A stretch of 47,186 nt of DNA from an uncultured SAR116 cluster alpha proteobacterium (GTDB lineage: Bacteria > Pseudomonadota > Alphaproteobacteria > Puniceispirillales > Marisalimonadaceae): the NCBI GenBank assembly GCA_902539895.1, contig CACBMD010000010.1, positions 1 through 47,186 on the forward strand, in the 5' to 3' direction. Of this stretch, positions 16,202 to 41,249 are shown in pieces. The translations under genes were made by a program, and so were the position numbers. Numbering within the stretch: the stretch's first letter is position 1; each line of letters begins with the position of its first letter. The notes under the pieces are model-generated. The model ran no database searches. It saw nothing but the letters and a program-made list of their open reading frames with translations, and was not told the DNA's origin.

Positions 16202-17561
16202 TTTCTTTGATTATAGCTTTGGAAATAATTTCCATAGTAGATTTTAAAAGGTTTATATCAGTGCACTCAACCATGACTCTAATTAAATCTTCTGTTCCAG
16301 AAGGGCGTAATAAAATCCTTCCTTTTTTTCCTAATTCTTTCTGATGTTTTTCAACTAAGCTAATTATATTTTTATTTAATAAAACACTTTTATCAATATT
16401 TTTTAGATTCTTTAAGGATTGAGGTATTGGTTGAAATGGTCTTAAGAATTCAGATGCTTTTGATCTAGACTTTTTAAGAAGAGACAATATTTTAATTGCG
16501 GTTAGTAAGCCATCACCTGTTTTAGCAAAATCACTAAGTAATATATGTCCTGATGGTTCCCCTCCAAGTTTGGAATTAGATTTAATCATTTTATCTAGAA
16601 TATAGCGATCACCTACATTTGTTCTGTGAAGGTGTATTTTAAGTTTATTTAAATAATTTTCTAATCCTAAATTAGACATCAAAGTACCAACAACCTGATT
16701 ATCAACTAATTCATTGTTGATTTGCATCTCTCTGGCTAATACTGCAATTATTTGATCACCATTGATGATTTCACCATTTTCGTCTGAAAAAATCACTCTA
16801 TCTGCATCTCCATCAAGAGCAATACCTAAATCTGCACCCTCTAGCTTTGTGATTTTCGCCATATTATCTGGATAAATTGCGCCACAATCCAAATTTATAT
16901 TTTTACCATTAGGCTCTGCTCCAATAATTATTGAGTCAACTCCAAGTTCAAATAACACTTCGGGACCAACTTTGTATGATGAACCATTAGAACAATCTAA
17001 TACTACCTTCATGGAGGATAGATCTTCTCGTTTAGGCAATATTTGTTTCACAAATTCAGAATATCTTCCTATTGCATCTTCCATTCTTCGTGCTCTACCC
17101 AAGTTTTCTGACTTTGCAAGGATAGGACCTCTAACCATTCTTGATTGAATTTCATTTTCAACTTCATCATTTAATTTAAATCCATCAGCACCAAATAATT
17201 TCAATCCATTATCTTGATATGGATTGTGTGAAGCAGAAATCATTACTCCTAAGTCACACCTCAGAACACTTGTTAAATAAGCAATTGCTGGTGTGGGAAG
17301 TGGACCAGTAGTAATAGAATCTAAACCTACAGAAGTAAAACCAGCAACAAGTGCAGGTTCTAGCATGTATCCAGATAATCGAGTATCCTTACCAATTAAT
17401 ACTCTTGATCTTTTGGTTCCTGCCCTTCCATAAAAATATTCACCTGCTGCCATAGCTAAATTTACAGCCATTAAAGCAGTAACCTTGTCTTTATTTACAG
17501 TACCTCTAATACCATCAGTGCCAAATAATCTTTTATTACTATTAAATGTTGTTTGGATCAT
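16188..17561 (-). CDS. glmM: Phosphoglucosamine mutase
   Basis: Converts glucosamine-6-phosphate to glucosamine-1-phosphate for UDP-GlcNAc, hence peptidoglycan and lipid A. It has 457 residues. Seen: FGTDGIRG at the N-terminus, the phosphoserine loop MISASHNPYQDNG, the metal loop DGDADR, the sugar-binding GGEPSGH and the C-terminal phosphate-binding RPSGTEDLIRVMVE. The order ftsH-folP-glmM is conserved widely in proteobacteria. It starts 7 bases after the folP stop. Confidence 0.96.
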   Translation of the reverse strand: MIQTTFNSNKRLFGTDGIRGTVNKDKVTALMAVNLAMAAGEYFYGRAGTKRSRVLIGKDTRLSGYMLEPALVAGFTSVGLDSITTGPLPTPAIAYLTSVLRCDLGVMISASHNPYQDNGLKLFGADGFKLNDEVENEIQSRMVRGPILAKSENLGRARRMEDAIGRYSEFVKQILPKREDLSSMKVVLDCSNGSSYKVGPEVLFELGVDSIIIGAEPNGKNINLDCGAIYPDNMAKITKLEGADLGIALDGDADRVIFSDENGEIINGDQIIAVLAREMQINNELVDNQVVGTLMSNLGLENYLNKLKIHLHRTNVGDRYILDKMIKSNSKLGGEPSGHILLSDFAKTGDGLLTAIKILSLLKKSRSKASEFLRPFQPIPQSLKNLKNIDKSVLLNKNIISLVEKHQKELGKKGRILLRPSGTEDLIRVMVECTDINLLKSTMEIISKAIIKENDNK

Positions 17562-17568
17562 GTTTATC

Positions 17569-18704
17569 CTATAAGTGTAAATACTTTTGACATATCAAAG
17601 CTTGATTTGTTTCAAATACATCATGCGTTCTTAATATTTGAACTCCACACATATTTGCATGAATAGCAAATGCTAACGAGCCACTCAACCTTTTACTTGG
17701 ACTTATGTCTATTTTATTTTTCCCACGAAACTTATAATCGTTTATAGTAAGCTCACCAATAAGTGATTTTCTACTTGCTCCAATTAAAATTGGAACACCT
17801 AAGCCATGAAAAAGTGGTAAATATTTAAAAATATTTAAATTGTCAGATAAAGTTTTTCCAAAACCAATTCCTGGATCAATAACAATATTTGATTTTTTTA
17901 CACCTGCTTCAATAAAGTCTGTAATTTTTTTAGAAAAAAAATTATAAATATCAGTAGGAGCAAAGCTATATTTTGGATTAATTTGCATATTCGTTGGTTC
18001 ATTTTGCATATGCATTATGATTATTGGTATATTTGTTTTTGAAATAAATTCAATTTTACTTCTCTCCTTAAATGCTGAAATATCATTCAATATATCTACA
18101 CCAATTTTATAGCATGTTTTCATTGTTGATAAATTTCGTGAATCTAATGAAATCAAAGATTTTACTTTACAATTTTTAAGATATCTTATTGGTTCAATAA
18201 CTCTGTTTATTTCTTCTAATCTCGAAATTTTTTCTGCTCCAGGTCTACTAGACTCTCCTCCAATATCAATGATAGAAGCTCCATTATTAATCATTTCATA
18301 AGAATATTTTTTGAGTTTCTTAAGATTATGAATTTGACTGTTTTTGTAAAAACTATCTGGTGTTATATTTATTACACCCATTATGTTTGGTTTTGACATA
18401 TCAAGTTTTGCAAAAGTAGGTCTCTTATTTACTAAATTGCTTATTTGAAATTCAGTTTCAGTTAGAGAAGTGTTGCTATGCTTTTTGGCAACTTTCAACA
18501 ATTCTTGGGTGGACATTTGAACTTCGATCAGATGATCTTTTTTTTTTGAAGCACTCTTAAATTCTTAAAAAATCTCCAACCACCTGCTAATCTTAAACCA
18601 TCAAGAATCTCAGAGGGTGAACTCAGTATTGGACTTATGAAAGTTTCAGCTGATCTACAATATGGTGGTGCTAATAAATATCTCGTTTTTTCGACAAAAG
18701 CCAT
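17569..18704 (-). CDS. folP: Dihydropteroate synthase, frameshifted at an A10 run
   Basis: Joins p-aminobenzoate to hydroxymethyl-dihydropterin pyrophosphate in folate synthesis. The catalytic TIM barrel is intact in an uninterrupted frame (17569-18516): IMGVINITPDSF, IDIGGESSRPGAE, VIDPGIGFGKTL, GASRKS. Alphaproteobacterial FolP proteins carry an N-terminal extension with an LAGG-W--F pattern. That extension is here too, but in another frame: ATG 18704, preceded by AAGG at good spacing, reads 58 residues including LRLAGGWRFFKNLRVLQKKK and stops at TGA 18528-18530. One extra A in the ten-A run at 18538-18547, or a -1 shift there, joins both parts into about 378 residues. Alternatively translation starts internally at ATG 18516, where I see only a weak ribosome-binding site. 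Confidence 0.8.
18538..18547 (-). other. A10 run with A-AAA-AAG slippery heptamer in folP
   Basis: In the frame of ATG 18704 the codons are CAA AAA AAA AAG ATC ATC TGA. This places the A-AAA-AAG heptamer, known from dnaX -1 programmed frameshifting, in the right phase. A -1 shift continues as GAT CAT CTG ATC and enters the main folP frame. A small GATC-ATCT-GATC hairpin follows directly, but it is weak. Ribosomal shift, transcriptional slippage, a real mutation and a sequencing error all remain possible. Confidence 0.6.
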
Positions 18705-18727
18705 ACATTAACCTTAGAAATAATCTT

Positions 18728-20665
18728 TTATGAATTGTCTATTTCATTTGTAACAATCGTCTGCTTTGCAGAAGCAGTAGAGGGTATACCAGCTGTTTTT
18801 TTGGGTTTTTTTGCCTTAGGTGCTGAATCTTTATCATCAGATTTCTTTATAGAAATGTTTAATCCTTTACATAAATCTCTAATTTGATCTCCATCTAATG
18901 TTTCATATTCAAGCAATGCTTCAGCTACTCTTTTCAACTGCTTTGAATATTTCTTTAACATTTTTTGAGCGTCTAAGTATACAGAATCAGCTATCCTTCT
19001 AATTTCTTCATCTACAATAGATGCGGTATTATCTGATAAATTTTTTTGTTGAGAAACTGATCTACCAAGAAATACTTCTTGTTCATTAGCTTCGTAAGCC
19101 AAAAATCCAAGTTTGTCAGAAAGGCCCCATTCTGTAACCATTCTTCGAGCTATATCTGAAACCATTTTAATATCAGAGCTAGCACCAGTAGTTACTTTTT
19201 CTTTACCGAAAATCATTTCTTCGGCTATCCTGCCACCACAAGCAACTCTAAGATCCGCATAGAGTTTATCTTTAGCCATTGAAACTCTATCACCTTCCGG
19301 CAACCTCATAACCATACCAAGTGCCCTTCCTCGAGGTATAATAGTAGCTTTATGTATTGGGTCGCTTGCTGGTGAGTATGCAGCTACTACAGCATGGCCA
19401 GCTTCATGATAAGCAGTAAGTTTTCTCTCTTCCTCTGTCATTACCATTGATCTTCTTTCAGAACCCATCATAACTTTATCTTTGGCTTCTTCAAATTCAA
19501 CCATGCTAACATTATTTCTGCCTTTTCTTGCTGATAATAATGCAGCCTCATTAACTAAGTTAGCTAAGTCAGCACCAGAAAAACCAGGTGTACCTCGTGC
19601 AATTATTTTGGGCACAACGTCGGAAGAAAGTGGCACTTTTTTCATATGTACCTTTAGAATTTTTTCTCTACCAATCATATCTGGATTTGGTACGACAACT
19701 TGGCGATCAAATCGACCAGGTCTTAATAATGCAGGATCTAAAACATCTGGTCTGTTTGTTGCGGCAACTAAAATTACACCCTCATTCGTTTCAAAACCAT
19801 CCATTTCCACTAAAAGTTGATTTAGTGTTTGCTCCCTTTCATCATTGCCACCACCTAAACCAGCACCTCTATGTCTTCCCATTGCATCTATTTCATCAAT
19901 AAATATGATACAAGGTGAATTTTTTTTCCCTTGTTCAAACATATCTCTAACTCTAGATGCACCAACTCCCACAAACATTTCAACAAAATCTGAACCTGAA
20001 ATTGTAAAAAAAGGAACGCCCGCTTCACCAGCTACAGCTTTTGCTAGTAATGTTTTACCTGTGCCAGGGGGACCAACTAATAAAACACCTTTAGGAATTT
20101 TACCACCAAGTTTTTGAAATCTACTAGGGTCTTTTAAAAACTCTACAACTTCTTCTAACTCTGCTTTAGCTTCATCAATTCCTGCAACATCTTTGAATGT
20201 TACTTTGTCTCTATGTTCAGTAAGAAGTTTTGCTTTAGATTTTCCAAAACCCATTGCACCTTTAGCGCCGCCCTGCATTTGTTTCATAAAAAATATCCAA
20301 ACACCTATAAACAAAAGCATTGGAAACCATGAAATTAAAACTGATAGTATTCCTGGCATACTACTTTCATCAGGTTCTGAAGTTACTTTTATCCCCTTTT
20401 CAGATAACTTATTAGCTAATTCTTCTTCTTTTGGAATAAATGAATAAAAAGGAACACCACTACTCGAAGCACCGAATATTTTATCACCCTGAATACTTAC
20501 TTCTCTAACTTCTCCGGCATTTACTCTGGCTAAAAAATCAGAATATGCAATTACATTACCTTGAGTTTTCGAAGAACCACCCTGAAAAACATTAAAGATT
20601 GCAACTAAAACAAGTGATATTATAACCCAAACTGCTATATTTTTTCCAAAATTATTCATTTTCAT
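18728..20665 (-). CDS. ftsH: ATP-dependent zinc metalloprotease FtsH
   Basis: Membrane-bound AAA+ protease that removes damaged membrane proteins and regulatory substrates such as sigma-32 and LpxC. It has 645 residues. Two transmembrane helices lie at about 10-27 and 108-127. Then come Walker A GPPGTGKT (198-205), Walker [13 protein letters not shown] (252-263), the arginine-finger region RPGRFDRQ, and the zinc-protease motif HEAGH (420-424). The Lys-rich C-terminal tail after about residue 605 is unstructured. It follows tilS by about 20 bases and precedes folP, the standard order. Confidence 0.97.
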
Positions 20666-31455: not shown

Positions 31456-32042
31456 TTAATTAACATTGGATAACACTTCGTTTTCTGTAATAATATAATC
31501 CAATCTCATGTCATGCTTTTCACTAGGTATTTCTTTTTCTTCTTGAATGCTATAGGCAAGTCCAATTGTAATAAAAAATTTTTTTTCTTTTTGAAAGTGT
31601 TTTTTTAAAAAATAGATTGATTTATCGTAATATCCACCACCATAACCTAGCCTAAACAATCCTCTATCAAATGAAAGCATTGGAACCACTAATATTTGTG
31701 GTAAGATAGATATCTGCTTTTTTGAAGGTTCCATCGTACCAAGTGGACCCTGTGTTAGTTGGTCTGTGGGTAGCCATTTCTTGAAAATCAAAGAATTTTT
31801 TTTTTTGTCTATTAAGGGTAAAGAGAGTGTTACGTTTTTTTTTTGTAAATAATTGATAAAATCAAAAGGGGAAATCTCATTATTTATTGGGAAGTATAAA
31901 CTTGCAGTTTGAATTTTTTTATTAGTGAGAAAAATTTTGTTTAGACAAATATGAATTTTATTTTTTAAATTTTCTTTTGCACTTAATCCTAGGTTAAAAT
32001 TTATTCTTTTTTTTTTGCAACAATTCTAAATTTATTTTTCAT
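31456..32042 (-). CDS. 5-formyltetrahydrofolate cyclo-ligase, frameshifted at an A10 run
   Basis: Converts 5-formyl-THF to 5,10-methenyl-THF with ATP, returning the stored folate to the one-carbon pool (YgfA/MTHFS family). The main frame contains YFPINNEISPF, TLSLPLID, the P-rich GPLGTMEPSKK and LFRLGYGGGYYDKS, all family hallmarks, but has no credible start upstream of them; the first start-like codon, TTG 31791, is past the first third. ATG 32042 opens a 13-codon frame (KNKFRIVAKKKE, stop 32001-32003). Reading one extra A in the ten-A run at 32007-32016 joins it to RINFNLGLSAKENL and gives about 195 residues, the normal length. It is the downstream partner of zapA and 6S RNA. Confidence 0.8.
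32007..32016 (-). other. A10 frameshift site in the 5-FCL gene
   Basis: Frame from ATG 32042: GCA AAA AAA AAA GAA TAA. A -1 shift anywhere in the run (for instance A-AAA-AAA) or one extra A continues as AGA ATA AAT into the cyclo-ligase frame. Two further runs inside the same gene, A10 at 31835-31844 and A11 at 31796-31806, are in frame with conserved sequence on both sides. Confidence 0.6.
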
Positions 32043-32059: not shown

Positions 32060-32217
32060 ATGTGAAGGCCAAATAGTCGTTGGATAAGTTATCCTATGTT
32101 GCCTGATAAACAGGTGGGTGCCATTTAATTTAACCAAAGCTAAAACAGTGACGGCCCCCTAAGAATACTTATGGCCCCAAGGATTAAAGTTCCTAACGTA
32201 AGATCCAGCCTCCAAAA
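32060..32217 (-). ncRNA. ssrS: 6S RNA
   Basis: Non-coding region between zapA and the 5-FCL gene, the canonical 6S position. The minus-strand transcript closes on itself: GGAGGC (32213-32208) pairs with GCCTTC (32069-32064), and CGTT-A-GGA (32198-32191) with TCCAACG (32084-32078). Inside are CCTTGGGGCC and GGGGGCCGTCACTG, G-rich patches like those flanking the open-promoter-mimicking bubble of alphaproteobacterial 6S, and a GGCACCCACCTG segment. 6S RNA binds sigma-70 holoenzyme and damps housekeeping transcription. The ends are approximate. Structure and context are seen; the name rests on context plus motif memory. Confidence 0.8.
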
Positions 32218-41183: not shown

Positions 41184-41249
41184 TTGATTTTTTTTAAGCT
41201 ATTTATATTATTAAAGACCAAAAGCTTTGAAGATAAAATTTTGTATTTA

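Follow-up and report, generated by a model that had tools for sequence, protein, structure and literature searches.

Two genes of folate metabolism in a marine alphaproteobacterium, folP (dihydropteroate synthase) and fau (5-formyltetrahydrofolate cyclo-ligase), are each divided between two reading frames at a run of exactly ten A's. We propose that both are working genes whose frame, broken at A10, is probably restored during expression through slippage of the RNA polymerase. The split, its conservation across species, the selection on the coding parts and the lack of a conserved ATG or GTG by which fau could bypass the break can be read from the sequences themselves.

The window, by which we mean the whole stretch of 47,186 nucleotides analysed, is a contig of a member of the SAR116 cluster of marine alphaproteobacteria (genome G000; assembly of 1.44 Mb in 71 contigs, 69% complete). 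Its GC content is 26-34%. The features discussed are collected in Table 1.

Table 1. Features of the folP and fau loci in the window
Feature	Coordinates	Strand	Remarks
ftsH, folP, glmM in a row		minus	names given by eye
folP front part	18528..18704	minus	N-terminal extension, zero frame; 58 aa, MAFVEKT...LAGGWRFFKNLRVLQKKKII, then stop; ends at TGA just past A10
folP A10 run	18538..18547	minus	heptamer A-AAA-AAG in phase
folP core	17569..18516	minus	dihydropteroate synthase, 315 aa, frame reached by -1 phase change; TIGR01496, PF00809
fau, whole gene	31456..32042	minus	5-formyltetrahydrofolate cyclo-ligase
fau start segment	32001..32042	minus	MKNKFRIVAKKKE, then stop; zero frame
fau A10 run	32007..32016	minus	exactly A10 in 15 split genomes
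fau body	31456..32025	minus	open frame including the run, reached by -1; PF01812
6S (SsrS) RNA	32062..32214	minus	Rfam RF00013, 51.5 bits, gathering score 46.4

The initial annotation described folP as split by a -1 phase change at A10, and the open reading frames and the run in the window bear this out. The run is exactly A10 within the codons CAA AAA AAA AAG ATC ATC TGA, the heptamer A-AAA-AAG stands in the phase that had been given and the zero-frame stop starts six bases beyond it. The core, in a frame different from that of the front, matches PF00809 (E 3.2e-65) and the dihydropteroate synthase family TIGR01496 (E 1.2e-79, 267.6 bits, exceeding the curated cut-off of 162.6), and it is the sole match to its family in the genome. 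At E 1 or better, neither Pfam nor NCBIfam gave a match to the 58-aa front piece. Continuous relatives carry this front segment joined in frame to this core, and it is therefore FolP's own extension, as had been claimed, and no separate gene. Its ribosome-binding site had been called good; one is present (TAAGG, 7 bases 5' of the ATG) but by eye it is only moderate.

We found folP in 34 of the 40 genomes of the genus and could read the junction in 33, one gene (G004) being cut at a contig end. The gene is continuous in 25 and split in 8. Seven of the split genomes (G000, G021, G022, G024, G025, G029 and G030) form one clade with the continuous G035 in a tree built from ftsH, glmM and folP core DNA, with six distant or cut loci left out. 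Support for this eight-species clade is 100/99, and a grouping of the seven that leaves out G035 is rejected (p-AU 3.5e-54). The folP split needs two changes on the tree, or three if G002 is counted; on the simplest view it would have arisen before the clade diversified, and G035 would have gone back once to a continuous A11. With seven of the eight clade species sharing it, and as an exception among in-gene A/T runs of at least ten, the split is beyond chance.

All seven splits of the clade are in the same -1 phase. The run is A10 followed by G in six of them; in G021 it is A12 because the G after the run became A, and the phase is thereby kept. Outside the clade the site reads A10 then T, A11, A13 or shorter, in phase everywhere except in G002. 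This eighth split gene (L030) stands alone. It has an odd A6G6 stretch, which may be a poly-G read artefact, at the place where the run in its close relatives is ten or eleven A's long, and it is split without the homopolymer of at least nine A's that the seven clade members have. Across the order, 110 of 136 genomes match the FolP protein of a continuous relative, and only the eight split genomes have two matches at one place in different open frames; five further matches have short open frames, and at least four of these adjoin a contig end by their coordinates. Seven SAR116 cluster relatives (isolates labelled AG-..., which we take to be single-cell genomes, though three of the seven are labelled MAG) have a FolP core 81-91% identical and junctions identical to those of seven of the genus genomes.

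Both halves of folP carry the mark of selection. In the seven split species pN/pS is 0.233 for the front and 0.228 for the core, against 0.282 and 0.234 in eight hand-picked continuous species; by this measure the front part is not relaxed in the split species relative to the continuous ones. In a neutral simulation on the clade tree all seven fronts were stop-free in none of 150 replicates at each of four scales. Judged by substitutions and open frames, purifying selection acts on both halves.

A split of the same type, absent from the initial annotation, lies in fau in the same window. The fau ATG stands 19 bases past the end of the 6S RNA match, and the body matches PF01812 with E 1.2e-24 and 87.7 bits, above the cut-off of 27. 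The gene was matched in 29 of the 40 genus genomes; the start is visible in 28, of which 15 are split and 13 continuous. Each of the 15 split genes has exactly A10, with start and body in different frames. Fourteen of them fall in one clade together with G028 and the remaining one, G039, stands apart beside the continuous G011, so that two changes are required. A search of 26 genomes outside the genus gave 20 fau matches, and by eye all 20 are open upstream through a plausible start.

In fau there is little from which the body could be started anew. In the window genome the first ATG or GTG past the run comes no earlier than codon 91, and not one of the 15 split genes has either codon within the first 58 body codons, where TTG occurs only in G019 and G034. 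It seems that fau is not made full length without a change of frame, and this lends credence to reading folP in the same way; fau is the stronger of the two cases. For body codons 20-57, pN/pS is 0.199 (14 of the 15 split genomes, G039 being left out). It is 0.713 over the eight codons of the start segment and 0.523 for codons 0-19 after the run, so that selection at the protein level is not evident right at the break. As to the run itself, of 64 Lys-only columns taken from three other genes, 23 have AAA in every one of 12 species; three all-AAA Lys codons in a row in the fau run would have a chance of about 0.05, or 0.22 by the folP core figure (9/15), which is suggestive at most. That 14 fau genes of a single clade all have exactly A10 tips the balance towards maintenance rather than tolerance.

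To place the two cases among other long runs, we compiled the A/T runs of at least ten from four genomes: all those in G000 (35), G022 (41) and G035 (55), and 46 that are part of those in G024. Within ORFs of at least 100 aa, 115 runs are in frame (18 in G000, 26 in G022, 33 in G024 and 38 in G035). A further 51 fit neither class (14, 11, 11 and 15, respectively) and could hide breaks with a very short front or an unusual start. In the same four genomes folP is split in three and fau in three, G022 having no fau match. With 115 runs in frame, neither errors nor a general tolerance explains the two conserved cases, and we reject generic decay and generic poly-A tolerance alike. That both conserved splits lie in folate metabolism may be chance.

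The census gave two other convincing splits, both in G022. A SelO-like gene is split at A10 (L112:1001-1010); it is the exception among 32 SelO matches in the genus, 31 of which are open over 475-481 aa. An OmpR-like response regulator (identified by eye) is split at A10 five codons past its start (L113:242-251, minus strand). Open-frame length is no guide to a break this close to the start, but read directly the gene is continuous in all seven of the nearest relatives. Several candidates were set aside. Runs within the fau body (window 31835; L253 1173) lie inside that body, L087 is a T run that by eye lacks a convincing gene, and the sole extra candidate among the 124 runs of seven or more in the window (at 41188) has the look of an ordinary gene start.

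How would the frame be restored? We hypothesize that a fraction of the transcripts receives one extra A when the RNA polymerase slips over the A10 of the template. The resulting A11 mRNAs would be read through into the enzyme, and the remaining mRNAs would end a few codons past the run. FolP and cyclo-ligase would each be made at full length but in reduced amount, and this lower level may itself be selected (programmed) or be no more than tolerated. Slippage by the polymerase is favoured because published rates on A runs are high: transcriptional slippage of 20-25% is given for an A11 run in Citrobacter (PMC4256274), and corrected transcripts of 12-50% for endosymbionts (PMC5009743). It is also favoured because folP shows no downstream structure beyond chance, because we saw no conserved stimulator and because published ribosomal rates in the unstimulated state are low. 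Against it, one would expect many split genes if slippage on A10 did no harm, and we see two conserved ones beside 115 runs in frame.

One alternative is that the homopolymer was miscounted in sequencing or assembly, as the initial annotation had allowed. All genomes compared are drafts, the SelO and response regulator splits are found in G022 alone, as errors would be, and the G002 folP split lies in an odd A6G6 run. Against this, the folP split recurs in seven related species and the fau split in 14 of one clade, the same folP site has in-phase runs of A10 to A13 elsewhere, G021 keeps the phase with A12, and the 115 other long in-gene runs of four genomes are in frame. A11 throughout the relatives had been named as the sign of an artefact; in-phase A11 occurs outside the clade and in one of its members, and the relatives are not consistent in it. 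We consider error very unlikely, and it is scarcely credible that folP and fau are decaying pseudogenes. Their reading frames are indeed broken, but by the measures above purifying selection acts on the front and core of folP and on the body of fau, the genome has a single folP match and the split is common to several species. A more substantial proposal, close to the mutation with internal start once suggested for this gene, is that folP is made as two pieces, a front peptide and a core re-initiated just past the stop. In the window the core ATG (18516) sits 11 bases past the zero-frame stop, and every split folP has an ATG, TTG or CTG overlapping that stop or 11 bases past it, so that re-initiation is possible. 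Many FolP proteins seem to lack the extension: the PDB matches to a continuous relative (44 sequences) all start at its residue 95 or later. The predicted structure of a continuous relative is of low confidence (mean pLDDT 42.8) and carries no weight here; it has putative strands at 48-55 and 58-65 and the Lys run at the turn. Yet the internal ATG, present in all 27 continuous genes read and in G002, is kept in only three of the seven split species, the others having ATT (2), CTT (1) and TTG (1); L069, L074 and L075 are left out of this tally. On this count the ATG is not what selection keeps in the split species. By motif scan no Shine-Dalgarno sequence precedes the candidate internal starts of the seven, and a scan of 17400-18900 gave no promoter-like site between the two ORF starts. 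Core codons -7 to 5, from the run to the first NTG common to all seven, have a pN/pS of 0.164 in the split species; the same codons are loosely constrained in the eight continuous species (0.544), so the lower figure rests on a short, variable stretch. The 21 bases before the ATG show seven substitution events, five of them synonymous in the core frame, a weak indication, and in the ten overlapping bases after the run 5/5 events are silent in the zero frame and 3/5 in the core frame, too few for weight. The same escape would find no ATG or GTG to use in fau. We therefore disfavour an internal start for folP and hold the two-piece gene to be rather improbable.

The frame could also be changed by the ribosome, through -1 frameshifting on the tandem Lys codons, programmed or not, which would yield fused FolP and Fau proteins. 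We take this to be the main rival; we think it unlikely, while granting it a real chance. A slippery heptamer is correctly phased in both genes (A-AAA-AAG in folP, A-AAA-AAA in fau), and the -1 direction does not differ between the folP clade, the fau clade and G039 with its separate fau split. In G034, where 30 of 35 tRNA loci were read, UUU is the only tRNA-Lys anticodon seen; a lone tRNA-Lys UUU is a condition for slippage on AAG in E. coli. The usual stimulators are another matter. Structure 3' of the run does not go beyond chance in any of the seven split folP genes (z -0.9 to 1.1, compared with -1.5 to 1.8 in eleven continuous genes), and the downstream energies of fau, taken without shuffles, are low (-0.4 to -6.3). 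By eye we could see no conserved Shine-Dalgarno-like element near the folP run, about 10 bases 5' of which most split genes have AAGAG-like bases and G025 has TTAAAAG. The likeness to the programmed -1 frameshift of dnaX drawn in the initial annotation is confined to the heptamer, A-AAA-AAG in the same phase: downstream structure does not exceed chance, a conserved Shine-Dalgarno-like element was not seen, and in folP it is the long product that a shift would yield. In E. coli, heptamers without a stimulator shift weakly according to PMC4066793, which gives for 39 shift-prone heptamer motifs without stimulator values of 2.1 to 10 times that without a motif (mean 0.055%). Constant direction among orthologues is described in PMC3711429 as a sign of ribosomal shifting, and under that rule the constant -1 direction of the conserved cases counts against the polymerase. 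But a gene lacking one A would also be of the type that an extra A can rescue best, and direction therefore cannot tell the two mechanisms apart.

Slippage of the polymerase on poly(A) has known precedents. PMC3017870 and PMC5009743 cite work in which transcriptional slippage rescues poly(A) frameshifts in Buchnera and Blochmannia (Tamas 2008, Wernegreen 2010), and the former counts eight such genes in B. vafer. As in the present case, these are AT-rich genomes in which a long A run is out of frame without decay, and some breaks are conserved between species. The comparison with endosymbionts that had been drawn for folP fits as to mechanism and does not fit as to host: here the host belongs to the SAR116 cluster, one strain of which is called planktonic in PMC3368413. 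It differs also in that only two split genes are conserved, both in folate metabolism, and that four genomes hold 115 other long runs which are in frame. The tssM1 gene of Citrobacter rodentium, as described in PMC4256274, likewise has a long A run ahead of a stop; ribosomal stimulators were not seen there either, and the full-length protein requires the changed frame. Our breaks lie in the front part of the gene, where the short product is a stub. Conserved frame changes at A-rich heptamers are likewise found among the GeneTack clusters of PMC3711429, the main text of which does not mention folP or dihydropteroate. Among titles and abstracts of open-licence papers, and in PMC7949028 and the main text of PMC3711429, we noticed no report of rescue of a poly-A frame break in folP, in fau or in SAR116. 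The kind of event is known from Buchnera, Blochmannia and tssM1; what is new is the host, the fact that two folate genes are concerned and the range of species that share the breaks.

To our knowledge, poly-A frame breaks kept by selection are known mainly from obligate endosymbionts. In this marine lineage one break is common to 14 species of a clade and a second to seven. In the clade concerned, an ordinary gene finder would probably call fau truncated and break folP into a shortened core and an orphan peptide, and two folate functions are therefore easily mis-scored. In this lineage one can also ask, as in a natural experiment, why A10 is kept in cells whose relatives have continuous copies with longer runs, and whether a broken frame can serve as regulation. 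Because both genes serve the folate pool and both need a -1 change on Lys AAA/AAG, it is conceivable, and in our judgement quite improbable, that the two breaks form a folate-responsive switch acting through modification of tRNA-Lys. Such modification alters slippage at Lys codons. At low folate, under-modified tRNA-Lys could slip more, and FolP and cyclo-ligase would rise. In E. coli, MnmEG modifies the wobble base of tRNA-Lys UUU with a carbon from methylene-tetrahydrofolate (PMC9626948).

Some features of fau stand apart from the question of its frame. The gene of G028 (L205), on a long branch with split relatives adjacent, has a broken A run and a continuous frame. In the window the fau body holds two more A runs, both in frame (31844-31835, A10; 31806-31796, A11), and this short gene thus contains three runs of ten or more A's. 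The fau gene of G037 (L190) groups with those of G000 and G035 (L188, L189) with support of 100/100, against the tree of the neighbouring genes, which suggests gene exchange.
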